From an uncultured delta proteobacterium (GTDB lineage Bacteria; Bdellovibrionota_C; UBA2361; OMII01): a stretch of DNA of 45,094 nt. The notes beneath the pieces were generated by a model that saw only the letters and a program-made list of their open reading frames with translations, had not been told where the DNA came from and ran no database searches. Within the stretch, counting starts at the first letter, position 1; each line of letters opens with the position of its first letter. A program made the translations under genes and the position numbers. Below are positions 13,911-44,624 of the stretch, one piece after another. The DNA lies in contig CAIXKI010000012.1 in assembly GCA_903920005.1 (NCBI GenBank), forward strand, positions 1-45,094. Direction: 5' to 3'.

Positions 13911-15986
13911 CTACCGACGTCGAATATTTCCGTACAGGGGGTTGCCAAGCATGATGCGGGAGAGGAGTCCAAAGAAGGTGCCGCATCCAACCGCGGTGAC
14001 AAGGGGTAGGAATAGCCCAACGGAGAAGAGTCCATATTGAAGCAAGATAAAGGCAAGTATCGAACACGGAAGAGCGACGAGTAACGTGACTCCGGAAAGC
14101 CCCAAAACTATCAGAGCAAAAAAGGTACAGACTGCGCCCTGTATTCCGATCTCACGCTGAATTGATACACGCTTGATCCAATATCTCATGAGAAGATTAG
14201 AGGTAGCGGTGGCGTGAATCTCAGTTCCGAACGTAGTGGTGTCAAACGGGGTGGTAAAGGCCTCCCTCTGCGAGGGGCCCGTTCGACTCTTCAAATTTAA
14301 GCCTACGAACACGATCTTGTCCGCGAAAACCTGCGGAGGAATTGGATGATCTTCGGCCAAGACCATATAGTACGGCACCGTTGATATCGTTCGTGACGAA
14401 CCGTAAAAGTTTATCAGGTCCCGCTCGCCTACATACTCACCAGCAAATGTAAGTCCGCTAGCAGCTTCAGCAAGACTTTGAACCTCAGGGAAAAGACTCG
14501 ATCGCGTCACGTTAAACTCGCGCGGCCTTCCATACCGAACAGGGAGCCCAACCGTTCCTATCCCCGCGGCTTTTGAAGCGAATACAGGCGCGGGCTTCAG
14601 CAGCTCCTCAAGCATATAGGATCCATTGAGTGTCGCCTGCTGAGACAGTCCAACGGCTGCGCCGAGGAAGGTGGGCATTCGCGTCATGGCAAATGCGAGC
14701 TCCTCATCCTTCTTCGGCTCCAACGACGGCTCAACAAAGAGGATATCGAACACGACCCGTTTAGCCCCAGCATCCGCAAGTTTATTGACGAGCCGCGCAT
14801 GAAGCTCTCGAGGCCATTGTGATGTGAGCGGCACAGATAGGTTGGAATAGCTCTGCTCATCCATCGAAACTATCATCACATCAGGGCTCGGTGGAGTAGG
14901 CCCCCGCAGCGCAAAGAGATTATCAAGCTGTCCTAACTCGATGCGAGAGACGGTCTCAGTCGTTGAGATAGGAAGAAACAACAGCCCCGAGAGAAGAGCG
15001 ACCATCATTTTCGCTCCCAATGTTCCCCGACGCATCGTTCGGAAAACCCGCGTATGGAGCGGGGCATCCATGAGAACCTGGTCAATAGCGAGTGTATTTG
15101 GGACGAGGTTACTCACTAAACTGACATCGATCTGCTTAGGAGCGTGCTTATCTAGATTCGCCGCAAAAGAAGAGAGCGACCTCATTCGCTCCTTCGGATC
15201 TATTTCCAGGAGCCCCAGCAAACCTGACGCTAGCCACTCTGGGGTGTCCGGTCGAAGCTCGCGCGGATCACGAGGAGCTTCCTCAACTTTTCGCATAATG
15301 ACACGCGCCGGTATCTCATCATCGATGGGCGCCTCCCCGGTTAAGAGCTGATAGAGAATCGCTCCAAGCGCATAATAGTCGACAGCTATCGTGGATTCCT
15401 CCCCCACGAGCGTCTCGGGTGCTAAGAAGGTAATCGTTCCCACTATCTCGCCAGAGGATACGGTCAACATCGAAGCGCCACCTCGTGCGATACCGAAATC
15501 GGTAATCTTAAGGCGGCCACCGGGAAGCATCATAATATTTGCGGGCTTGAGATCTCGATGGATCACGCCAACAGAGTGCACAGCCGAAATACCGCGCATC
15601 AACTGCGCGGCGATACTTAAGACCGTTGGAATCGGAATCCCACCCTGCGACAACAGCGCCTCAACCGTGCTGCCGGCAAGATACTCCATCGTGTAGAAGA
15701 GAGTGTCCCCTTCTTGCCCGAAATCAAACGTCCGCACGACGTTCTCATGGTTAATTTTGTGTGTTAATCGAACCTCTCGGAGGAATCGTTGGACGATGTC
15801 ATCTTTAAAGTGCGCGCCTTTACGAAGGATCTTGATCGCGACGGTGCTCTCACCAAGCACGATATCTTCCGCAAGATACACTGAGGCCATGCCGCCACTT
15901 CCGAGAGGGCGAATGATCTTGTATCGACTACCGACGATGTGTCCGGGGGCTAGATAATTCCCTCCCCCTTCATCGGGTGCTCCCAT
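13911..15986 (-). CDS. membrane Ser/Thr protein kinase with CHASE2 sensor domain
   Basis: The 691-residue receptor begins with a complete Hanks-type kinase: G-loop 'LGSGGMASVY' at about 28-37, lysine in 'VAIKIL' (K52), catalytic 'HRDLKPANIM' near 143, 'DFGIARGG' near 165 and 'APETL'. A membrane helix ('MMVALLSGLLFLPI', about 325-340) leads into an extracytoplasmic CHASE2 domain with the typical start 'SPDVMIVSMDEQSYS' and 'AGAKRVVFDILFVEPS'. Three hydrophobic helices close the protein (about 600-680). CHASE2 receptors more commonly have the sensor first and the output domain last, so the order here is reversed. It faces a FecR-TPR-barrel gene divergently, suggesting a shared envelope-signalling role (inference). 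Ligand and targets are unknown. Confidence 0.9.
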   Translation of the reverse strand: MGAPDEGGGNYLAPGHIVGSRYKIIRPLGSGGMASVYLAEDIVLGESTVAIKILRKGAHFKDDIVQRFLREVRLTHKINHENVVRTFDFGQEGDTLFYTMEYLAGSTVEALLSQGGIPIPTVLSIAAQLMRGISAVHSVGVIHRDLKPANIMMLPGGRLKITDFGIARGGASMLTVSSGEIVGTITFLAPETLVGEESTIAVDYYALGAILYQLLTGEAPIDDEIPARVIMRKVEEAPRDPRELRPDTPEWLASGLLGLLEIDPKERMRSLSSFAANLDKHAPKQIDVSLVSNLVPNTLAIDQVLMDAPLHTRVFRTMRRGTLGAKMMVALLSGLLFLPISTTETVSRIELGQLDNLFALRGPTPPSPDVMIVSMDEQSYSNLSVPLTSQWPRELHARLVNKLADAGAKRVVFDILFVEPSLEPKKDEELAFAMTRMPTFLGAAVGLSQQATLNGSYMLEELLKPAPVFASKAAGIGTVGLPVRYGRPREFNVTRSSLFPEVQSLAEAASGLTFAGEYVGERDLINFYGSSRTISTVPYYMVLAEDHPIPPQVFADKIVFVGLNLKSRTGPSQREAFTTPFDTTTFGTEIHATATSNLLMRYWIKRVSIQREIGIQGAVCTFFALIVLGLSGVTLLVALPCSILAFILLQYGLFSVGLFLPLVTAVGCGTFFGLLSRIMLGNPLYGNIRRR

Positions 15987-16312: not shown

Positions 16313-19300
16313 ATGGCTAACTCTCAGAAATTCCTGAAGGCTTTGGTCGGCGTACTGCTGACAACCATCCTATTTGCCCGACCGGCAATCTCTCAAACGT
16401 CGGTTGTGGGAAAGCTCTATCTAGCCGAGGGCTCAGTTTTCGTGCGCCCCGCAGGAGCATCAACGTGGAATCAAATTCAGGTGGGAGCCCCACTCTCCGT
16501 CGGCGACACAGTAAGAACCGGCGATGATGGGAAAGCCGCCCTGGAGTTTATCGACGGCGCGCTCGTGCGACTCGGCCGCCTCTCCGCGATGACCTTTAAC
16601 GAAGTCAGCCCCACGGGGGCGCCTGCGGTCATGCAACACAACGGAAAAGCCTACTTCTTCTCCCGAGGGGCTCGTAAAGAGCCGTCTATCGAAACTCCGA
16701 TGGTCAACGCAGCAATTTACGGAACTGAACTCGTTGTGGATGTCACATCAGAGAAGACTACGATCGATGTTCTTCACGGCTCAATCAAAGCATCGAACGA
16801 GCTCGGAGCGGAATCAGTAGGTGTCGGTGAAAGCGTTACTGCGCGACGTGGCGCTCGCCTCACAAAAACTATCCTGGTGCGCCCACAAGATGCTGTGCAA
16901 TGGATGATTCGCTTCCCTTTTGTCATCACATCTCTTGATATCGCGCCATCGGCGGATACCTCATGCGACATTCAGTGCACCCTCTCCGCTCAAGAAGCTA
17001 TCACCAAAGCAGCGAAGGGAGCCTCCCTCTTTGATGAGGCTCGAAGAGCTCCGAAGCCCCTCTCCGCGACACCCCGCGGACGGATCCTTCAGGCGATAGC
17101 GCTCTGGCAAGTAGGAGATCTAGCATCCTCTCAGGCGATTCTCGCAAAACTTCCCAGTGCGCTTGGAGCTCGAGACGCGGCGATAAGGCATCTCCTTCAA
17201 GGATTCGCGGCGCTGCAACGAAGCGACGTAGCAGCAGCAAAGTCTCACGCGGCGGACGCGGAGCAACTGATTCCGGGTATGGTTAATACCGCCCTACTCA
17301 ATTCATATATAGCTCAGGCACAGGGTGATGTCGACCTAGCGCTAACAGAATCAACCGCCCTGCGAAAAGCGTACCCCCAAATAGCCGAGACCTACGACCG
17401 AGAAGCGGAACTCCTTCTCTCTAGTGATAAACGGGAAGCAGCATCTGAGGTAATGACGACAAGAACCTCACAGTTCGGCTCAAGCCCTCTCTCTTCGACT
17501 CTGGCCGGATTCTCAGCTCTCGCGAATAAGGAGATGGAAGCGGCGCGCTCCTATTTCGATACCGCCATAAAAAGCGACCCCTCTCAATCCCTCGCGTATC
17601 TCGGAAACGCGTTACTGGACGCTCAATCAAGGGACTACTCGACCGCTCAAGGCAACCTTTCACGAGCTATTCAATTAGATCCAAGCGTCGCCGTCTATCG
17701 CTCATACCTTGGGAAGTTATTCTTTGAGGACGAGAACTCTCCCAAAGCAATTAAAGAGTTCGACGCGGCGGTTGCTCTCGATCCAAACGATCCGACCCCC
17801 TACCTCTATCGCTCGTACGCGAAGATAGCGGAAAACGACCCCGTCGCCGGGTTAACCGATGTGGAACGCTCCATCAAACTGAATGATGGGCGCGCTGTCT
17901 ATCGGTCATCTCTCCTTCTTGACCGAGACGTAGCGGTACGAAGCGCGGGGCTCGCTCGAGCGTTCTCTGAACTTGGATTCACTGAGGCCGCGCGAATCGA
18001 GGCTATTAAATCAATCACCGACGATTATTCAAACTACTCAGCGCACCGTCTTCTCTCAGACTCATATACCTCTATTCTTGATACTGAGGGATTCAATTCT
18101 GAGCAACGAATCGCCGACCTTTTAGCTCCATTGAGCTTCAACCTCTTTAATAGCGTTGGAGAACAGGCGAGCCTTGGTGACTATAATGCTCTGTTTGACA
18201 AGAAAGAGACGAGGAAAGCGGTAGGTCTCAACTGGAGTTCAAACCAGGACCACTACGTTGGGAACCTCCTCGCGACGGGGAAGGGAGAGGACTACGGGTA
18301 TCTATTGAGCTATCGCCCGGATTACGCGTTCGGCTCGCATCACAACGCCTTCTTCGGAGATTCAAAACTCAGAGGAGCTCTCCAGTATGAAACCTCCCCG
18401 AATGACCGATTTGTGCTCGACAGCTCATGGAATTTGCGGAACGTCGAAGGTAGCCAACAGGGGGACTACTCTGAAGACGTCCACGTGGGTTCCGTCAGAC
18501 TCGGCTATAACCACAGAGTCTCTACCAATCTGAGATTCCTGGCACAGGGGGAATTCGCCCGAGATAGTGAACACACCTCAGAACGCGTACTGCGGGACAT
18601 TACGGTCGCGGTGCCTGAGTGGAACGAAGAGTTCTCGGTAGGCTCAATCGGAGACGAATATACCAGCCAACGAGTATATCGAGAAAGCCTAGCGACACAG
18701 ATGATCTATACTTCGCACTATCTTGATTCAGTAAGTGGCATTGAGGGCCTCTATGCCGACACAAGCAGACGAGGATCCTACGAACTCCTTGAGATTCAAG
18801 ACGTTCCTCCTTTTGCCACCAGCGCAAGTAGCAGTAGCGGCAACCTCTCCTCTGGAACCGTGTACGAATATGTATCTCTGAAGGTGCCACGCCGAGCGAC
18901 CCTCACCTTGGGGGTTGACGCGACCCACATCGAAAGAGACCTCACCGAAGTCGCTCCTTTTATTGATGGCAGCGACTCACAAGGCAAAGTCTCTCCAAAG
19001 TTCGGCCTCGTTCTCACTCCAACATCATGGCTCACCGGTCGAGCGGCATACTTCGAAGGGTTGCGAAAATCTGTTCTTGAGGACCTCAGTAGCTTGGAAC
19101 CGACTCTTGTGGGCGGAATCAATCAACGGTTCAATGATTTTAGCGGAACAGAGAGTAGAAATCTCGGCTTCGGTCTTGATGTCAAAGACGCCAATACGCT
19201 CTACGCTGGAGCTCAATACACACGACGACACATTATCGATTCGTTCGGAAATGTCAGCGATTTCGCGATATGGGATGGAGAATCAACGATCCCAAGTACT

Positions 19301-19759
19301 CCGCGTACCTATGGGTTTGAGGACAGTCACGCGAACTCAGACACTCTTCGCGGATACGTGTACTCAGTTCTTACACCTAAATCTGTTCTCACAGCTGATT
19401 CGCTCTACGAACATTATGCCGAGACCGATCCGGAGATAAGAGCTGACACCTCGATTGATGGGGTAATCGACACGCAGCGATATCGTTTAGGCTACAAATA
19501 TTTCCTTGGAAAGCATTTCTCCGTTGGCACGCAGGCAACCTATCGCGACCAACAACTTTCTCAGACCGACGATCCAAATGGATTCTGGCTCTTCGACCTT
19601 GGAGTCAACTACCGATTCTCGGAACAACACGGACGAATGTTCGCGCGGCTCGATAACATCCTCGACCGCGACTTTACCTACGCCCAAACAAGGGGGCTGG
19701 AGACTCAGGTGCTCGAGGGCCGCTCGTTCATCGTTGGAGTTAATTACAACTTCTGGTAG
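16313..19759 (+). CDS. FecR-TPR-outer-membrane beta-barrel fusion protein
   Basis: The 1148-residue protein has a signal peptide (cleavage near 'AISQTS', residue 27). It then has a FecR-type domain (about 35-170; 'VRPAGASTWNQIQVGAPLSV', 'VGDTVRTGDDGKAALEF') and a helical TPR region (about 215-600; 'SLAYLGNALLDAQSRDYSTA', 'SVAVYRSYLGKLFFEDENS', 'DPNDPTPYLYRSYAKIAEND'). From about 620 to the end alternating aromatic/polar strands form a TonB-receptor-like barrel that finishes 'FIVGVNYNFW', a typical outer-membrane barrel C-terminus. No obvious plug domain is present. It probably sits in the outer membrane with FecR and TPR parts in the periplasm. Transport substrate is unknown; the divergent CHASE2 kinase may sense the same signal. 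A glycosyltransferase gene follows on the same strand. Confidence 0.85.
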   Translation: MANSQKFLKALVGVLLTTILFARPAISQTSVVGKLYLAEGSVFVRPAGASTWNQIQVGAPLSVGDTVRTGDDGKAALEFIDGALVRLGRLSAMTFNEVSPTGAPAVMQHNGKAYFFSRGARKEPSIETPMVNAAIYGTELVVDVTSEKTTIDVLHGSIKASNELGAESVGVGESVTARRGARLTKTILVRPQDAVQWMIRFPFVITSLDIAPSADTSCDIQCTLSAQEAITKAAKGASLFDEARRAPKPLSATPRGRILQAIALWQVGDLASSQAILAKLPSALGARDAAIRHLLQGFAALQRSDVAAAKSHAADAEQLIPGMVNTALLNSYIAQAQGDVDLALTESTALRKAYPQIAETYDREAELLLSSDKREAASEVMTTRTSQFGSSPLSSTLAGFSALANKEMEAARSYFDTAIKSDPSQSLAYLGNALLDAQSRDYSTAQGNLSRAIQLDPSVAVYRSYLGKLFFEDENSPKAIKEFDAAVALDPNDPTPYLYRSYAKIAENDPVAGLTDVERSIKLNDGRAVYRSSLLLDRDVAVRSAGLARAFSELGFTEAARIEAIKSITDDYSNYSAHRLLSDSYTSILDTEGFNSEQRIADLLAPLSFNLFNSVGEQASLGDYNALFDKKETRKAVGLNWSSNQDHYVGNLLATGKGEDYGYLLSYRPDYAFGSHHNAFFGDSKLRGALQYETSPNDRFVLDSSWNLRNVEGSQQGDYSEDVHVGSVRLGYNHRVSTNLRFLAQGEFARDSEHTSERVLRDITVAVPEWNEEFSVGSIGDEYTSQRVYRESLATQMIYTSHYLDSVSGIEGLYADTSRRGSYELLEIQDVPPFATSASSSSGNLSSGTVYEYVSLKVPRRATLTLGVDATHIERDLTEVAPFIDGSDSQGKVSPKFGLVLTPTSWLTGRAAYFEGLRKSVLEDLSSLEPTLVGGINQRFNDFSGTESRNLGFGLDVKDANTLYAGAQYTRRHIIDSFGNVSDFAIWDGESTIPSTPRTYGFEDSHANSDTLRGYVYSVLTPKSVLTADSLYEHYAETDPEIRADTSIDGVIDTQRYRLGYKYFLGKHFSVGTQATYRDQQLSQTDDPNGFWLFDLGVNYRFSEQHGRMFARLDNILDRDFTYAQTRGLETQVLEGRSFIVGVNYNFW

Positions 19760-23797: not shown

Positions 23798-24994
23798 ATG
23801 AACCCAGCTTTGGCCTACGAAAACGCCACTTGCCCGTACTATACCCGCGGGGAGTGTAACTCATGCTCACTTTTGGGAATTACTCAGGGCTCTCGCCTCT
23901 CGTCTAAAGAGGCCTCGGTGCTCTCTGCCATAAGGGCTAAGGGAGCCTCTCCGGAGACCGTGGAAGCTATTAGAATCCCCCATCATCCCTGGGGCTCCCG
24001 GTGCAAAGTGAAGATGAATGTCACTGGCACTACCGCAGCCCCGTGTATCGGTATCATCAAAGCGGATAGAACGTCGGTAGACCTTGTGGAATGCCCGCTC
24101 CCACCTTCCCATATCAGAACCCTTCTCTCAGGCCTTCGCGGCTTCATCACGGACGCAGCTCTCGTACCGTATGACGTAGAGGCGCGCCGAGGAGAGCTAA
24201 AAAATATCATCGTGATGAGTAACCACGATGGTTCTCAGGGGATCCTTCGGTTCGTTGTTCGAACCTCTGAATCTATTCCGCGTATAAAGAAACGAGTCAC
24301 AGAGCTTCAAACCAACTATCCGTGGCTCTCGGTCATAACGTGCAACATTCAGCCCCTTCCCGCGGCTATTCTTGAGGGTCCGGAAGAGATCTTTCTCACG
24401 GATACACAGATGATAGATGAGCGATACGGGGAGCTCTTACTCTCGTTCGCGCCACAATCCTTCATGCAAGTAACGCACGAAATAGCGCAGGCACTCTACC
24501 AACGGGCGGCCAAGTATGTACGAGAGAGAAGCGTTACCCGAGCTCTCGATCTCTTTTGCGGCGTTGGCGGGTTCTCTCTGTCGATCGCGCCCGCGTGTAG
24601 GGAGGTCACAGGTGTAGAGCTCTCAGCTAGAGCGATAGAGAGCGCTCAACATTCGGCTCGACGCTCAGGGTTTTCTAACACCACCTTTGTAGCCAGTGAC
24701 GCTGAACACTTTCTCGCTCAAAACCAAGGAGCCTCATACGATCTCGTCGTAACCAATCCTCCTCGGCGAGGGTTATCCGCGGAGATACTACGCCAACTTA
24801 AGTTGCTTGCTCCATCGACGATTATATATTCTAGCTGCTCCCCGGAAACCTTTGGCCGCGACTGCGCGGCGCTCCACGATACATACCTCCTTAGGGGTAT
24901 AGCGCTCTTCGATATGTTCGCCATGTCAGAGCATTGTGAGGTGCTGGGTTTTCTCGAAAGGAGAGGGTCTCCAGAGCCACTACCGAGCCTATAA
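23798..24994 (+). CDS. rlmC: 23S rRNA (uracil-C5)-methyltransferase, RlmC/RumB type
   Basis: The 398-residue enzyme methylates C5 of a uracil in RNA using SAM. The N-terminal cysteines 'CPYYTRGECNSCSLLG' match the iron-sulphur cluster of RlmC/RlmD, and there is no TRAM domain before them, which favours the RlmC (U747) branch. The SAM-binding motif is 'ALDLFCGVGGFSLSIA' near residue 248, 'VVTNPPRRGL' near 315, and the catalytic cysteine is in 'YSSCSPETFGRD' near 345. The gene is divergent from dapF and overlaps the end of the Thr-Pro repeat gene by six bases, tail to tail. TrmA-type specificity is less likely because of the cluster cysteines. Confidence 0.9.
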   Translation: MNPALAYENATCPYYTRGECNSCSLLGITQGSRLSSKEASVLSAIRAKGASPETVEAIRIPHHPWGSRCKVKMNVTGTTAAPCIGIIKADRTSVDLVECPLPPSHIRTLLSGLRGFITDAALVPYDVEARRGELKNIIVMSNHDGSQGILRFVVRTSESIPRIKKRVTELQTNYPWLSVITCNIQPLPAAILEGPEEIFLTDTQMIDERYGELLLSFAPQSFMQVTHEIAQALYQRAAKYVRERSVTRALDLFCGVGGFSLSIAPACREVTGVELSARAIESAQHSARRSGFSNTTFVASDAEHFLAQNQGASYDLVVTNPPRRGLSAEILRQLKLLAPSTIIYSSCSPETFGRDCAALHDTYLLRGIALFDMFAMSEHCEVLGFLERRGSPEPLPSL

Positions 24995-26470
24995 CCACTC
25001 TCCGGGAATAGGCATATTTTGGTATGACGTTACCTTTGTTTTGCTCGTTATTTGTAGAACTAGGTAGGAGGTAAGGCCGTGACGAACTCCCGCAACCCGC
25101 GTAACTGAACTACCACTAGGCAGCGCAGGCACTGAAAGAGTTCGCCATTGGTTAGCGGAATCCAAGATTTGAAGCACCTGCTTCGAGCCAATTCGCGCAA
25201 GAATACTCGCCGTTGCAAGTTGCCCTTCACGCCTCGGAACGATTCCAAAAGTGACGTCAGCGCATCTCGAGTCGATTCGGGGTGATGATAGAAGCGTCAG
25301 CCCACCTTTTTTTGCCACAACGTTTAGTGTTTTTCGATTTTTGCTCTCATTCAGATAAAACACAGCACTGGTACCATCCTGTGGAGCCGCACAACGAACT
25401 TCAATCGCGGTACTCGGCACCGGCAAGCCTTTAGTCAGAAACTTCCCGTTACTAGTAAATGAGAGCGCGTTCTTCGATGTATTGAGGACCGTTGGGGTAT
25501 AATTATTATCGATATAGCAACCGACTACGGGTTCTCCCAGAGCGTTGATGGAAGCGAACTGCCGATATGGGATAGATCCAGAGAGCGAGACGACATTCCA
25601 TAGATACTTGGTTGAAGCTTTCTTAACCGTGACGATGCCCCATCCGCTATCCACTCTGCCTATATCAATCGCGACCGCTTTGGTATCCACTTGAATCTTT
25701 CTGAGGGAGCCTTCAGCATGTAACACGACCTCGGCGGCCCCCCTCACCCCAACGAACGCAGCGTCAGCTACAAGATCGCCCTCGATATCTCCCTCGACGG
25801 GAGTGGGTGTAAATGTAGGTGTGCTTACCACGGGCGGCACGACCGATGTCGGTGTTTGGGTTGGGGTACTTGTTTGAGTTTCACTTGGCGTATTGGTAGA
25901 GGTGGCGGTCGGAGTATCCGTTGGAGTGCTGGTTGGCGTTTCGGTCGGAGTCTCCGTTGGAGTATGGGTGGGAGTTTCTGTTGGTGTATTCGTTGGAGTT
26001 TCAGTTGGAGTTTCCGTCGGTGTATTCGTTGGAGTTTCCGTTGGAGTTTCCGTTGGAGTTTCCGTCGGTGTATTCGTTGGAGTTTCCGTCGGCGTTTCTG
26101 TTGGTGTATTCGTTGGAGTTTCCGTCGGTGTTTCTGTTGGTGTTTCTGTTGGTGTATTCGTTGGAGTTTCCGTCGGTGTATTCGTTGGAGTACTCGTCGG
26201 AGTATTTGTCGCTACCAAGCAGGTAGTTCTATCGGCACTCGAAATCGTTCCGTCACCACAATTTCTACAAGAAGATTTACCAGAGAGCGGTTGATATTTA
26301 CCATCAGGACAAAGGATGCACGACGCCGCGTTCTGAGTTGTACTGTATGTTCCAGGATCACACGGTAGACATTTCTTCTTAGAAACGTACATACCTGACT
26401 GGCAGGTCTGAGCCATTCCCGAGGGAGCAAAGAACAAAAGGAAAAAAAGAAGAGAAAAAATATACTTCAT
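24989..26470 (-). CDS. secreted protein with Cys-rich module, Thr-Pro repeat stalk and C-terminal domain
   Basis: The 493-residue protein has a signal peptide (cleavage near 'GMAQTC'). Residues ~22-85 are a cysteine-rich segment with '[18 protein letters not shown]' and '[15 protein letters not shown]', the pattern of GCC2/GCC3 (ephrin-receptor-like) modules. Then come over 20 'TPT' units alternating with N, S, E and D (about 90-215), an extended stalk that could be O-glycosylated. The last ~280 residues look beta-rich and have no family I recognise. ATG 26470 is preferred to the GTG at 26473. It is likely exported to the cell surface or periplasm; no anchor or sorting signal is seen. It lies downstream of transketolase behind a palindromic repeat, so it is probably transcribed separately. 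Confidence 0.75.
25850..26212. repeat. in-gene tandem repeat coding Thr-Pro units
   Basis: On the plus strand this reads as variations of GTTGGAGTTTCC and GTCGGTGTATTC, repeating every 12 bases and, less strictly, every 36. It encodes the Thr-Pro stalk on the minus strand. Several blocks are near-identical, so copy number may vary between strains by slippage, and assemblies here can be unreliable. Confidence 0.85.
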
Positions 26471-26645
26471 CACCTAGTAGCCCTGATCCTCGTGCGACCA
26501 CAACGGTCGCACAACTGCAACCTTCCGGCGGTCAATATTCATTCTCATTCGCGAGAACGAACTCTTTTAACTCGGTGTACGAGGTTCAAGTATGACGGTG
26601 ATGATGCTGAGGTGCTTACACCTCACATCTTAAATAAAACGTACA

Positions 26646-38126: not shown

Positions 38127-38271
38127 CGCGCTGCTCCCCACACGAGGCGCGGCAATCGCGGAAGAGCCCAATCCCCCGCTCAAGACAACCTGTGTTCCCC
38201 ATCACCGCCTACGTTTTCCTACGCGAGTCGTGAGGTGTAATTAGCCATAGTTCGTGCTAGGCTCCCGTTCC

Positions 38272-38691
38272 ATGGAAACATCAGATAAAATTGAAATCCC
38301 GGCACTTGTCGAATCAACACCAGCTCCGAGCCAGCCAGTAACCGCTCCGATCGTTGACGACGAGATTGAGATCGACCTCTTCGCTAGAGTCAAACTTCGC
38401 ACAGCGACCATCGAGGCCGTTGAGTCAGTTCCAAAGTCGAAAAAGCTGTACCGCATTCAGCTTGACGTTGGAGAACTCGGCAAGAGACAGATCGTTTCTG
38501 GTATCGCTCAGCACTACACTCCAGAACAACTCATCGGTCGTCAGATCGTTATTGTCGCCAATCTGAAACCAGCGAAGCTCATGGGTGTTGAGAGCCAGGG
38601 AATGCTCCTCGCGGCGTCCACAGATGGAGATGGCGCCCTCGCGCTTCTCACTCCGGACAAGCCGATCCCCTCGGGCGCACGAGTACGCTAA
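38272..38691 (+). CDS. stand-alone tRNA-binding OB-fold protein (MetRS beta-like)
   Basis: The 139-residue protein has a Pro/Ala-rich lead of ~35 residues and then the EMAP-II/Trbp111-type OB fold found at the C-terminus of many methionyl-tRNA synthetases: 'IDLFARVKLRTATIEAVESV', 'YRIQLDVGELGKRQIVSGI', 'IVANLKPAKLMGVESQGML'. It would bind tRNA nonspecifically and may dimerise or associate with MetRS. The catalytic MetRS is not in the window; in other bacteria metG often sits right before tatD, the next gene here. ATG 38272 is preferred over the GTG at 38254. CsaA chaperone-like function is an alternative. Confidence 0.85.
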   Translation: METSDKIEIPALVESTPAPSQPVTAPIVDDEIEIDLFARVKLRTATIEAVESVPKSKKLYRIQLDVGELGKRQIVSGIAQHYTPEQLIGRQIVIVANLKPAKLMGVESQGMLLAASTDGDGALALLTPDKPIPSGARVR

Positions 38692-40265: not shown

Positions 40266-40341
40266 CAGGGTGATAAAAAACTAGGGGAGTGGGAACCAGG
40301 CCTACGTGGGTTCTCAACCAACACGTCCGACACTCTCTTCA

Positions 40342-43314
40342 TTACGAATGGGCAACGCTCATTCCCGATGCGGTCGCGGTTCTCTGAGGTCCACGCGAAG
40401 ATCCTTTGAATTCGGCCACAGGACCAACGCCTTCACGCACCACGATCACATCTCCCAACTCAGCAAACTGTCCGTAGTCTGTCTCAGGAGATGGGTACAT
40501 CTTAAGCCCTCGCTGAGAGACTGCGGGAACGGAGAGGTAGATCTGAGCACGCTCTGGAGCTGGTCGCGTCAATCGATCTTGCACCGCCTGACGCACAACG
40601 AGCGGATCAATATCCTTAACGCATGCTGTAGTCTCGTAATTACAGTACCAATTGCATCGCGCACACGAGACAGGTGTGGACACCGCTGAGGTAAGCGCCG
40701 AATAAGGCATGAAACGACCAAAATGCCCCCCTCCAAGAATCACCACATTAGGGGTGCCAACGGCACATGCGATGTGGGCTGGTCCACTTTCGGCTCCGAT
40801 CATCAACGCGCACCGAGAGACAACCGCCGCGACATCAGTAAGACTTGTTTTTCCGAAGAGACTAACCACCCGAAGACTAGTTCCACGAATGGCTCGACCG
40901 AGACTTTCGGATTCGTGTTCCGCGCCGAGGCCAATAATCACATATCCAGCGTCGCTGAGCATCGCCATCGTCTCTGAGAAGCGTTCATAGACCCGCCCCG
41001 GAAGTTGCGCTCCGGGAGCGAACGCGATCGCCTTCTCTTGGGGGATCTGCAACTCTCGAAAGAATCTTTCGGCTGTCTGCTCTGATGTCGGATCGCGCCA
41101 TACAACCGGCTTGCGAGTACCTGCATTAACACCAAGCCTGCCAAGAAAGGCATCGTATTTTTCAATCTCCGGCATCCATGTATCGACCTCCGTTACAAGC
41201 GCCGTGTAGGGAGAATCACCTCGCGATGAAAGACTCGAGTCCTTATTTTGATCGTCCCCCTCAAACGCTATCGCCGTAGCCCCGGCAGCCCATCCACATA
41301 TCTGATCTGAAAGCACATCTCTCGAATAGGCGGTATTAAAAACAAGATCAGCGTTCCAACCGCACACCTCCCTCTCCAAATTGAAGAGCGAGGTAGGATC
41401 ATCGAGTCTGAAGGTCATTATTTTGGAGACGAACGGACAATGGGTAAAGAGTTGCGCTACTCGCTCTTGACAGACGACGGCGATCTCAGCGCCAGGATAG
41501 CAAGCCTTCAGTGGCTCAATCGTTGACGCGCCCAAAACGTTATCCCCTATAGAGTCTGTTCGCACCCATAGTATTCGACTGGCTTGCTTAGGAAGCCTCG
41601 GTGATTGGAAGTGTCCTCCATCGCTCTCTACGGTGACCGAAACCGACAGCGGCGTAGGAGTGAACTGAGCGATACAGAACCCGAATTTCTCCCTTGAGTC
41701 AGCGAGCACTTGAAATCGCGGGTCCCTCTTGAGTTGAGAAAAGCTCTTGTGGTGCTTTATGTGGTACACATCATCGAGCGCGATGATACATGGTCCCTTA
41801 AGCTTCTCTAGAAGGTACGAAAACTCCACAAAGCCCATGTGACCGGCGCTATCGAGTATGACGAAGTCGGGCCTATCCTCGAAAGCGTTAAGCGCCTTAC
41901 CAAGCAAATCCTCTTCAACTCCGTCGAAATTTGTCTCTTCATAATACAAAGTCGCTCGATTGTGCTCACGATGATCAACAAAGATATCGTCAAACTCAAT
42001 GTTGCGAACGCATGCCTCCTCAATCTGCTCAACCGTCGGAAGGACAGAACGAGGAACCGACAACCCGTGACAAAGGCGTACTAAAGGAGCAAGCCCAGCC
42101 TGAGTCAGATTGTATTGCGCCTGCGCTACATTCTGCGGGTTAACCTCTATCGAGTAGAAGCGAGTGTCGTTGAGGTTGAGTTGCCGTAGGGTCGATGCGA
42201 TTACTGAGGTTGTCCCTGTGCCGAGATACGTCCCAGTTTCAATGATCTTTGTTGGACGATACTTAGTAAATACGTCTCGAATGCTTCGAGCGAAGTCAGA
42301 CTCTTGAGAGATCTTTGTGAGATCGAGATCGCCAGCATAGTCCTCGGCCACCTTGACAGTTCTCTTCGCTGAGGCCGAGCTCTTTTGCGTCGCCGAGCAC
42401 TGCTCCAGAAGCCCCATCACCTGCTCTTGAGCCTCATTACTAGGGAAGATTTTTGAAAAGTTTACCGACGCCGCACCACCTGTCGAATTCGTCAAATAGC
42501 TCACAAGCCCGTGGCACGCTGCATCATCCGAAGGAATGCGAGACTGCTCATAAGGCACTGGACTCGCAACTCGTTGAGCATAGTAATCTCTCCAGTACGC
42601 AACCTGTTGATCCATAGGAAGCGCGCGCACGACAGGCGCAACAACTTTCCAATGCTCCTCTATCTGCTGATTCTCAGTTCCCGGGGGGTGCGATTTCGAG
42701 GCAAGGGGGGTATTTGCGAGAACCGCATCAACAAACGCAAACGATTCGTTTTTCGCGAGCTTCAAGAAAACATCATAGTCGATACTGAACCGCAGATCCT
42801 CTCGGAAGAGACCGATCGAGTCGAGAGCCTTGCGAGAAAGATAGACGCTCGATCGGTGAGGATGCCGCTCGCAAAGCCACCAGCGCACAAGCTCATGGCT
42901 TTTCGTGACAGCACCTGGCACCACAACGTACCTTTCACTCCTGGCTCCATCAACCAGCGCGCACGAACCATAGAGCACAGCGGCGTCTGGAAACTGTTCT
43001 CGTGCATTAAGAATTGCGGTAAACGCGCCCGGTTCGAGCCACTCATCGCCGTTCAACCATAGAACGAGGTCGCCCCGCGCTACTCGAAGAGCCTTATTCA
43101 ACGCCTGGCCCTCTCCAGTGTTAGGCTCCGAGAGCCATCGGAGGTGCCCATATTTAGAAAGGACCTCAACGGTCCCATCCTTCGAATCGCCGTCGACTAT
43201 GAGGTGCTCAACCCGGTGGTCCCCCTGCGACATCACACTTTCAATGCAACGAGGAAGACTCGCCGCGCAGTTTGAAACTGGCGTAATGACTGAAATGAGC
43301 GGTAGGTGCTTCAT
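40342..43314 (-). CDS. GT2-methyltransferase-GT9 three-domain fusion
   Basis: The 990-residue protein contains three enzymes. Residues 1-220 are a GT2 glycosyltransferase ('ISVITPVSNCAASLPRCI', 'LIVDGDSKDGTVEVL', 'LVLWLNGDEWLEPGAF'). Residues ~330-560 are a Rossmann-fold methyltransferase-like domain with 'KIIETGTYLGTGTTSVIAST', 'FYSIEVNP' and 'DFVILDSAGHMGFVEF'. Residues ~575-970 are a GT9 heptosyltransferase-like enzyme: 'ILWVRTDSIGDNVLGASTI', 'AFAPGAQ', 'MIGAESGPAHIACAVGTPNV' and the cysteine cluster 'CARCNWYCNYETTACVKDI'. No membrane segment is seen. It probably builds and modifies a surface glycan. The whole frame is open without frameshift, so the fusion is real in this sequence. It converges on the enoyl-CoA hydratase gene. 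Confidence 0.85.
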   Translation of the reverse strand: MKHLPLISVITPVSNCAASLPRCIESVMSQGDHRVEHLIVDGDSKDGTVEVLSKYGHLRWLSEPNTGEGQALNKALRVARGDLVLWLNGDEWLEPGAFTAILNAREQFPDAAVLYGSCALVDGARSERYVVVPGAVTKSHELVRWWLCERHPHRSSVYLSRKALDSIGLFREDLRFSIDYDVFLKLAKNESFAFVDAVLANTPLASKSHPPGTENQQIEEHWKVVAPVVRALPMDQQVAYWRDYYAQRVASPVPYEQSRIPSDDAACHGLVSYLTNSTGGAASVNFSKIFPSNEAQEQVMGLLEQCSATQKSSASAKRTVKVAEDYAGDLDLTKISQESDFARSIRDVFTKYRPTKIIETGTYLGTGTTSVIASTLRQLNLNDTRFYSIEVNPQNVAQAQYNLTQAGLAPLVRLCHGLSVPRSVLPTVEQIEEACVRNIEFDDIFVDHREHNRATLYYEETNFDGVEEDLLGKALNAFEDRPDFVILDSAGHMGFVEFSYLLEKLKGPCIIALDDVYHIKHHKSFSQLKRDPRFQVLADSREKFGFCIAQFTPTPLSVSVTVESDGGHFQSPRLPKQASRILWVRTDSIGDNVLGASTIEPLKACYPGAEIAVVCQERVAQLFTHCPFVSKIMTFRLDDPTSLFNLEREVCGWNADLVFNTAYSRDVLSDQICGWAAGATAIAFEGDDQNKDSSLSSRGDSPYTALVTEVDTWMPEIEKYDAFLGRLGVNAGTRKPVVWRDPTSEQTAERFFRELQIPQEKAIAFAPGAQLPGRVYERFSETMAMLSDAGYVIIGLGAEHESESLGRAIRGTSLRVVSLFGKTSLTDVAAVVSRCALMIGAESGPAHIACAVGTPNVVILGGGHFGRFMPYSALTSAVSTPVSCARCNWYCNYETTACVKDIDPLVVRQAVQDRLTRPAPERAQIYLSVPAVSQRGLKMYPSPETDYGQFAELGDVIVVREGVGPVAEFKGSSRGPQRTATASGMSVAHS

Positions 43315-43533
43315 AGGGCGTCACGCATAAACACTGGGGGCAAACACTACCCCTCGGTGTCTAAGATTCGGAGTTTTCATCTTCGATTCAATTAGTTAGG
43401 AGTATGGGAGCGCCTAAACCTGCCTAACAGGCTGATACAATTAAGGAAGCAGCAAAGGTAACGAGGAGCGTCCTGACTTTCACAGCCGCGCGCTCACTTG
43501 AATAGCTCCCCAGCCCCTATTACCCTGTACCGT

Positions 43534-44439
43534 ATGATCACGTACAACCCGAAGGACTGGTTCCGCCTCATCTTCCGCTTTCACAGTAGCGACACCTTTC
43601 GCATTCTACTGCCAACGATGACGATGCTAGGAGCGCTAACCGGAGGCCTAGTTTTTCTGGAGCTACACTCAAAGTTACATTTCAAGAGCCCTACGATCTT
43701 CCATCAAATCATCGGCTTCGTGCTCTCTATGCTTCTCGTGTTTCGTATTAACACTGCCTACGAGCGGTGGTGGGAGGGTCGCAAGCTTTGGGGAAGCCTC
43801 GTCAATAATTCTCGGAGTTTGATGAGCAAGATCCAGTCTCTCTTAGGCGCCAAGCATGCCGGCGATCTTGCCCTCTTGCGTGACGCGTTATCGACATTCC
43901 CGTACGCCCTAAGAGATCACCTGAGAGACGACGCACGAGCAGAGGACCTTCCGGCCTTTGGGAACGTCGACCGGCGAGCGCTTCTCACCGCGCAAAACAG
44001 ACCGCTTTACCTCCATAGTTTTCTAGTTCGGCACCTCCAAGAATTACGATCCCACGGAGTTCTTACGGATGAGCAACTACTTTACCTGAACGGCGAGCTT
44101 TTCTCGCTCATTGATATCACTGGCGCTTGCGAACGGATAAAAAACTCCCCAATCCCTTTCTCATACAGCTTATTCCTCAAAAAGATTATCTTCGTGTACG
44201 TCATTACGATGCCGATCGCGTTTTCATTCGACTTCTCTTACTGGGCCGTCCCGGCTGTAATGATCATCTTCTACGCCTTCGCTTCCCTAGAACTTATTTC
44301 AGAAGAAGTTGAGGAGCCCTTCGGCACTGAGGCAAACGACCTACCTACTGATGAGCTCGCGGACAAGATTCGAGCGGATATCTTAACCATCACCACTCCG
44401 GCGTTGAGCCGGGAACGGATACCGAAGATACCGGCATAA
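43534..44439 (+). CDS. bestrophin-like (UPF0187/YneE family) membrane protein
   Basis: The 301-residue protein matches bacterial bestrophin homologues: start 'MITYNPKDWFRLIFRFHSSD', 'FVLSMLLVFRINTAYERWWEGR' near residues 70-90 (the family signature), and 'EEVEEPFGTEANDLPTDEL' near the C-terminus, the conserved acidic Ca-clasp-like segment. Four hydrophobic helices are apparent. Bacterial members form pentameric ion channels selective for sodium in the case of the Klebsiella protein; chloride conduction is typical for animal forms. ATG 43534 is preferred to the TTG at 43498. A hairpin terminator follows. Confidence 0.9.
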   Translation: MITYNPKDWFRLIFRFHSSDTFRILLPTMTMLGALTGGLVFLELHSKLHFKSPTIFHQIIGFVLSMLLVFRINTAYERWWEGRKLWGSLVNNSRSLMSKIQSLLGAKHAGDLALLRDALSTFPYALRDHLRDDARAEDLPAFGNVDRRALLTAQNRPLYLHSFLVRHLQELRSHGVLTDEQLLYLNGELFSLIDITGACERIKNSPIPFSYSLFLKKIIFVYVITMPIAFSFDFSYWAVPAVMIIFYAFASLELISEEVEEPFGTEANDLPTDELADKIRADILTITTPALSRERIPKIPA

Positions 44440-44455
44440 CCGCATTAAGACATCG

Positions 44456-44489
44456 CAAGCCCTAGCTCAATAGACGAGAGGCTTGTTTT
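44456..44489 (+). terminator. terminator after bestrophin-like gene
   Basis: CAAGCC (44456-44461) pairs with GGCTTG (44480-44485), with an inner CTC/GAG pair, and is followed by TTTTCC. It lies 16 bases after the stop codon. Confidence 0.6.
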
Positions 44490-44517
44490 CCAATTACTCG
44501 CAGGAAATTAGCGAGCA

Positions 44518-44537
44518 AGGGAGCGTCCCTTTTTATA
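44518..44537 (+). terminator. small second terminator-like hairpin
   Basis: AGGGA-GCG-TCCCT is followed by TTTTAT on the plus strand. The stem is only five pairs, but the U-tract is immediate; it may back up the preceding terminator. Confidence 0.45.
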
Positions 44538-44624
44538 GTAAAGGGGTAGAACCCTCATAGCGCGACACACCCTAAGGCGTGTATGTTATTGTGGCAACGT
44601 CAACACCTTTCAGTACAATCCGCC

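Follow-up and report, generated by a model that had tools for sequence, protein, structure and literature searches.

A GT2-methyltransferase-GT9 fusion protein from an uncultured delta proteobacterium and the recurrence of its methyltransferase-GT9 module in other phyla

Glycosyltransferases (GTs) and methyltransferases (MTs) that share one polypeptide chain have been described in a viral and in a bacterial system. The chlorovirus protein PBCV-1 A064R contains two GTs and a SAM methyltransferase in the order GT-GT-MT (638 aa); all of its activities were shown, and the enzyme builds and O-methylates part of the capsid N-glycan (PMC9614988). ORF6 of Klebsiella pneumoniae O7 is arranged as MT-kinase-CBM-coiled coil-GT2-GT2, and its MT methylates the phosphate cap (PMC11231755). 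In E. coli O9a, the methyltransferase WbdD is tied to O-polysaccharide assembly and export (PMC3482155). As A064R and O7 ORF6 are active GT and MT fusions, the principle of such an enzyme is already known.

The protein described here can be likened to A064R on domain content, since two GT domains and one MT were recognised in one chain by Pfam and Foldseek; it differs in the order GT2-MT-GT9 and in its GTs, which in the viral enzyme are GT34-like and of a new family. With O7 ORF6 it has in common that it is a bacterial chain with an MT, two GTs, GT2 modules and a glycan context, but ORF6 carries a kinase and a coiled-coil ruler and has no GT9. WbdD is an MT-kinase with a coiled coil and without a GT domain. 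The open-licence literature yielded no account of a fusion with the order GT2-MT-GT9 or MT-GT9. The statement of the first-pass annotation that no named enzyme has this order thus stands, whereas the underlying concept has precedents (PMC9614988, PMC11231755). New here are the MT-GT9 module, its spread across phyla and the compact GT2-MT-GT9 order.

The window, that is, the whole stretch of 45,094 nucleotides that was analysed (contig CAIXKI010000012.1), carries the fusion gene on the reverse strand (Table 1). By frame inspection it has an ATG start, 990 codons and one stop, and the third-position GC content (GC3) is coding-like in all three domains. The earlier claim that a single 990-residue frame holds a GT-A domain, a Rossmann MT and a GT-B domain was confirmed by frame inspection, Pfam, structural models and Foldseek. 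The full-length model (pLDDT 79.5, pTM 0.54), which was built from an alignment (A8) whose ends are slightly misplaced, delivered the structure prediction proposed at that stage: three globular parts, matching GT9 and GT2 structures, with stretches of low confidence between the domains (residues 206-220, 249-283, 306-315 and 556-569). The MT-GT9 join was found again in nine other loci and therefore does not stem from an assembly error of the window contig; an artefact at this join was considered and judged unlikely. The GT2-MT join was observed directly in the window contig only, with no contrary evidence among the findings, and among the loci recovered the direct order GT2-MT-GT9 was found in the window protein alone.

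Table 1. Features of the fusion gene and of its locus (positions are those of the window; residues are those of the fusion protein).
Feature	Position	Strand	Basis
GT2-MT-GT9 fusion gene, 990 aa	40342..43314	(-)	single open frame and domain matches
GT2 (GT-A) domain, residues 4-201	42712..43305	(-)	PF00535, PDB profile match, Foldseek
N88-G89-D90-E91 motif of GT2	43042..43053	(-)	alignment A7
Mostly helical linker, residues 202-317, low model confidence	42364..42711	(-)	alignments and model
Class I SAM-dependent COMT-like O-methyltransferase domain, residues 318-556	41647..42363	(-)	homologues, model, Foldseek
SAM-binding motif I, E359-TGTYLGTGTT-369	42208..42240	(-)	alignment A4
D488, putative metal ligand after strand 4 (topological match of COMT D141)	41851..41853	(-)	A4 and model strand order
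D514-D515, putative metal ligands after strand 5 (topological match of COMT D169/N170)	41770..41775	(-)	A4 and model strand order
GT9 (GT-B) domain, residues 578-930	40525..41583	(-)	PF01075, Foldseek, homologues
D591 of RTDSIGDN, opposite WaaC catalytic-base region (S-x-GD)	41542..41544	(-)	alignment to WaaC
C-x2-C-N-W-x-C-x6-C motif of the GT9 subfamily, candidate metal knuckle	40621..40665	(-)	subfamily alignment
4.3-kb block with fusion gene and bestrophin gene, between enoyl-CoA hydratase and metallo-beta-lactamase-like gene	40266..44582		synteny

The middle domain was matched by Methyltransf_24 (PF13578) over residues 358-455 with an E value of 5.3e-5 and 24.5 bits, just below the Pfam cut-off of 26.3 bits; the homologous loci L051 and L050 scored 27.0 and 28.2 bits. 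This marginal match was made firm by nine homologues with 49-57 % identity to the window MT, by a confident AlphaFold2 model of the domain (mean pLDDT 90.2, pTM 0.88) and by Foldseek, with which TrmR/COMT was the best match (E 6.6e-10) among 475 PDB matches at E<=0.001. With 49-59 % identity across phyla, as compared with 30-40 % for GT9, the MT is the best conserved part of the module. The motif I pattern E-T-G-T-Y/F-x-G-x-G-T-T is kept in all ten sequences of alignment A4, in which E359, G365, G367 and T369 (A4 E52, G58, G60 and T62) are invariant, as is the acidic residue after strand 2 (E390; A4 E83). The assignment of the middle domain as a SAM methyltransferase was upheld by this motif and by the Rossmann fold of the model.

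Also invariant in ten of ten sequences are D488 and, four residues further on, H492 (A4 D181 and H185), as well as D514 and D515 (A4 D207 and D208). From alignment and strand order, D488 and D514-D515 appear to occupy the places of the COMT metal ligands; the local HMMER alignment picks a different Asp. The domain thus shares with COMT and TrmR the Rossmann fold, the SAM motif, an Asp and an Asp-Asp pair by topology, and a nearby invariant His. It differs from COMT-like enzymes in sequence (11-18 % identity), in a helical insertion between strands 3 and 4, and in conserved signatures of its own family (FVDH, LDSAGHMG and ALDD..H.KH). A metal-plus-histidine mechanism is known from the sugar O-methyltransferase MycE (PMC9539859). 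Conservation above that of GT9, together with the invariant SAM motif, D488, D514, D515 and H492, argues for an active MT, for which methyl transfer is predicted.

Residues ~310-945 can be aligned without a break, at 38-45 % identity, in nine loci from four further phyla: L045 (Syntrophobacterales), L048/L077 and L055 (Verrucomicrobia and Verrucomicrobiia), L050 (Limisphaerales), L051 and L061 (Bacteroidetes), L074 (Geomonas paludis, cultured) and L076 (Phycisphaerales). These loci were recovered by a search with the GT9 alignment, so that the set favours sequences with the C-x-x-C-N-W and VRTDxIGD patterns; a single-sequence scan of genome contigs with the whole protein gave no relative. The carrier frames range from 1203 to 4712 aa, several of them with additional GT2, GT4, other MTs or TPR repeats, and in the ten fused proteins 4-22 residues separate the MT from GT9. 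A GT2 lies further upstream in the same chain in L061, L074 and L076, and directly before MT-GT9 in the window only. The longest frame, in a Bacteroidetes MAG (JAKAJV010000089.1; L061:632-14767, 4712 aa), combines seven or more GT2 with one GT4, several methyltransferases, the MT-GT9 pair and TPR repeats, and appears to be a whole glycan assembly line in one chain. In four loci (L049, L053, L058 and L063) a polysaccharide pyruvyltransferase domain stands directly before the same GT9 subfamily in place of the MT, as called with a profile built in this analysis in three cases and with Pfam in L053. A modifying enzyme in front of this GT9 subfamily, be it a pyruvyltransferase or an MT, is therefore a recurrent and exchangeable arrangement.

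In Nitrospirota (L063, L064 and L068), MT and GT9 are encoded by separate, neighbouring genes. In L064 and L068, the MT has a gene of its own, ~1 kb away from a GT9-GT2 gene and encoded on the other strand. In L063, the MT family forms the C-terminal domain of an ABC_tran-Wzt_C protein (ABC transporter ATPase; L063:5933-7945), the gene of which overlaps a GT9-GT2-pyruvyltransferase-GT9-GT2 gene. Two order-level relatives of the host have more distant MTs: one (G019, identical with L036/L075) fused to another GT and GT9, the other (G023, identical with L044) free and beside a related GT gene. When viral contigs (IMG/VR) were scanned with the MT alignment, 65 loci were obtained, mostly free-standing genes for 215-245 aa, which are common in the contigs L094-L159; contigs of 370 and 494 kb are among them, and some of the MTs are near multi-GT genes. 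Annotated phage records gave no match, and matches in plasmid records were ordinary separate GT2 or GT9 genes only. A split in relatives, which the first-pass annotation had named as evidence against the fusion, thus occurs, both as separate genes in Nitrospirota and as the MT alone in viral contigs, but it does not undo the fusion. The occurrence of MT and GT9 as neighbouring genes in one lineage and as a fusion in another suggests that they work together. An export and glycan context for the module is provided by the Wzt-type fusion of L063 and by the neighbours of the L074 gene (an ABC ATPase, an ATP-grasp protein, a DegT aminotransferase and GTs).

The fused MTs cluster almost completely in the MT tree (2 label changes, as compared with a mean of 8.8 in shuffles); the lone intruder, L107, is cut by the contig end, and a fused state is possible. 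Sequence pairs with a higher MT identity also tend to have a higher GT9 identity (Mantel r 0.42, p 0.005). Unbroken descent of MT-GT9 from a single origin was nevertheless rejected, because a single clade of the MT-partnered GT9s is rejected in the GT9 tree (AU p 1.4e-6); the module has therefore been broken or rejoined during descent.

The GT9 domain was recognised with Glyco_transf_9 (PF01075; residues 726-888, E 5.2e-20, 72.2 bits at a cut-off of 22), and the corresponding part of the full-length model has a GT-B fold by Foldseek (3tov, TMt 0.75-0.77; WaaF 1psw, 0.72). A role as LPS-core heptosyltransferase, as implied in the first-pass annotation, found no support, since the bit scores fell far below the cut-offs of the NCBIfam equivalogs (HepI 60.5/134.6, HepII 55.3/185.3 and HepIII 53/170.2). 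With WaaC, WaaF and WaaQ the domain has in common the family-level match, the fold and the conserved Asp region; unlike these enzymes it sits inside a multi-domain protein, and its Cys motif is missing from the aligned WaaC/WaaF stretches. It belongs to a GT9 subfamily of its own, which is marked by a Cys motif and occurs in giant glycan enzymes with many domains, although the universality of this motif is partly a matter of ascertainment because part of it served as search pattern. The RTDSIGD block is kept in the window GT9, and D591 (A3 D283) is invariant in alignment A3; an R stands at the lysine position of WaaC/WaaF, and the domain lies on a long branch (1.57) of the GT9 tree.

The N-terminal domain was matched by Glycos_transf_2 (PF00535; residues 8-114, E 3.7e-22, 79.5 bits at a cut-off of 23.3). 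A profile search against the PDB matched chondroitin synthase (E 1.7e-55), and in Foldseek the GT2 part of the full-length model matched 6p61 (TMt 0.84) and also SpsA. Most relatives have N-x-D-D where the window protein has N-G-D-E; in alignment A7, D90 is invariant, and the Asp at position 91 is nearly invariant except here. An NXD motif is active in a GT2 of K. pneumoniae O7 ORF6 (PMC11231755). Taken together, the N-G-D-E motif, the long GT9 branch and the R at the lysine position indicate that one of the two GTs may have changed or lost its activity.

Residues 1-305 are 35 % identical to GT2-GT4 fusions encoded in the host's own genome and elsewhere in its genus (~33-36 % for L002, L019, L020 and L039), which have the GT2 and linker in common with the window protein and carry GT4 in the C-terminal half instead of MT-GT9. 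The boundary of the mosaic lies near residues 306-310; helices were modelled with low confidence at 214-309. The protein is a mosaic of a genus-typical GT2-linker block and an MT-GT9 block, so that the notion of the fusion as one fixed unit was not borne out.

In all ten congeners with an orthologous enoyl-CoA hydratase gene, the metallo-beta-lactamase-like gene comes directly after it; at the window locus the block with the fusion gene and the bestrophin gene, both of which the congeners lack there, is inserted, as shown by synteny. No convincing direct or inverted repeats, and hence no ends of a mobile element, were found at its edges. The GC content is 0.495 in the MT part and 0.53-0.54 in the GT parts; a foreign base composition was considered, and no claim of recent foreign DNA is made, because GC3 is host-like in all domains. 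The remainder of the window mostly contains housekeeping genes. It also encodes a 1148-aa protein with an unusual order of FecR domain, TPR and TonB-receptor-like beta-barrel (16313-19759 (+)), a CHASE2 sensor domain joined to a protein kinase (13911-15986 (-)), a 494-aa protein with a match to the ephrin-receptor-like cysteine-rich repeat (24989-26473 (-)) and, between holB and tatD, a stand-alone tRNA-binding domain of the MetRS C-terminal type (38254-38691 (+)). The host genome has six other GT9 matches.

The most likely reading of the fusion is that it adds a sugar, methylates and extends. We consider it probable that the protein works in the cytoplasm as a soluble enzyme with three activities, by which part of a surface glycan is extended and O-methylated, with an O-polysaccharide or similar glycan as the presumed acceptor. 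The GT2 domain would add one sugar and the GT9 domain another; the MT between them would O-methylate a hydroxyl group of one of the added residues by using SAM and probably a divalent metal, all three domains being held on one chain by flexible linkers. The methyl group would presumably be placed on the sugar made or used by GT9. The protein arose when a GT2-linker module, normally fused to GT4 in the genus, was joined to the widespread MT-GT9 module. The gene is an orphan, with neither a glycan cluster nor wzm/wzt beside it, which counts against the surface-glycan reading.

A capping or export role is made possible by the exporter fusion in L063, in which the same MT family is joined to ABC_tran-Wzt_C. 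The protein would then act as a chain terminator for an ABC-transporter-dependent polysaccharide, its MT capping the non-reducing end and the exporter reading the methyl group through the Wzt C-terminal domain, as with WbdD and O7 ORF6; methylated or methylphosphate caps that are read by exporters are known (PMC3482155, PMC11231755). Of the 20 genomes or records with the module or its GT9 subfamily that were searched, 10 contain Wzt_C and the other ten gave no match, although MAGs may be incomplete, and two Wzt_C proteins are encoded in the host genome on other contigs (C203 and C133). We nevertheless regard chain termination as rather unlikely, as a Pfam scan gave no kinase domain in the window protein, no coiled-coil ruler was recognised in it (its helices at 214-309 being modelled with low confidence), and no exporter gene adjoins its gene. 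Unlikely, too, is the broader proposal that MT-GT9 is a mobile methylate-and-extend (or cap) module of giant glycan synthases, swappable with a pyruvyltransferase, the methyl group of which is read by a Wzt-type exporter; the window protein would then represent this module in compact form, with three domains.

The Cys4 motif of the GT9 subfamily recalls the iron finger of TibC (PMC4358343), and TPR repeats occur in many relatives, as might be expected if GT9 glycosylated a protein in the manner of the bacterial autotransporter heptosyltransferases (TibC/AAH) and GT2 and MT elaborated the glycan. This is quite improbable: the cysteines are spaced C-x2-C-x3-C-x6-C, as compared with C339, C342, C358 and C370 in TibC (PMC4358343), the window protein has no N-terminal beta-barrel, and no autotransporter or flagellin gene was recognised within the window. 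A recent, partly decayed mosaic, in which one GT is dead (GT2 with N-G-D-E, or the fast-evolving GT9) and the MT and the other GT are active, would account for the altered GT2 motif, the long GT9 branch, a GT2-MT join unique to the window and a locus missing from congeners. Against this very improbable explanation stand the full-length open frame with coding-like GC3 throughout, the conserved Asp and motif blocks of GT9, and the fact that GT2 N-x-D motifs can be active (PMC11231755).

The wider finding is a tightly conserved, uncharacterised O-methyltransferase family: across several phyla it is linked to one GT9 subfamily within giant multi-enzyme glycan synthases, and viral contigs carry it as a stand-alone gene. 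O-Methyl groups on surface sugars influence how phages and antibodies recognise them and can control the length of the chain. With a compact version of 990 aa and a cultured carrier, Geomonas paludis, the question becomes testable.
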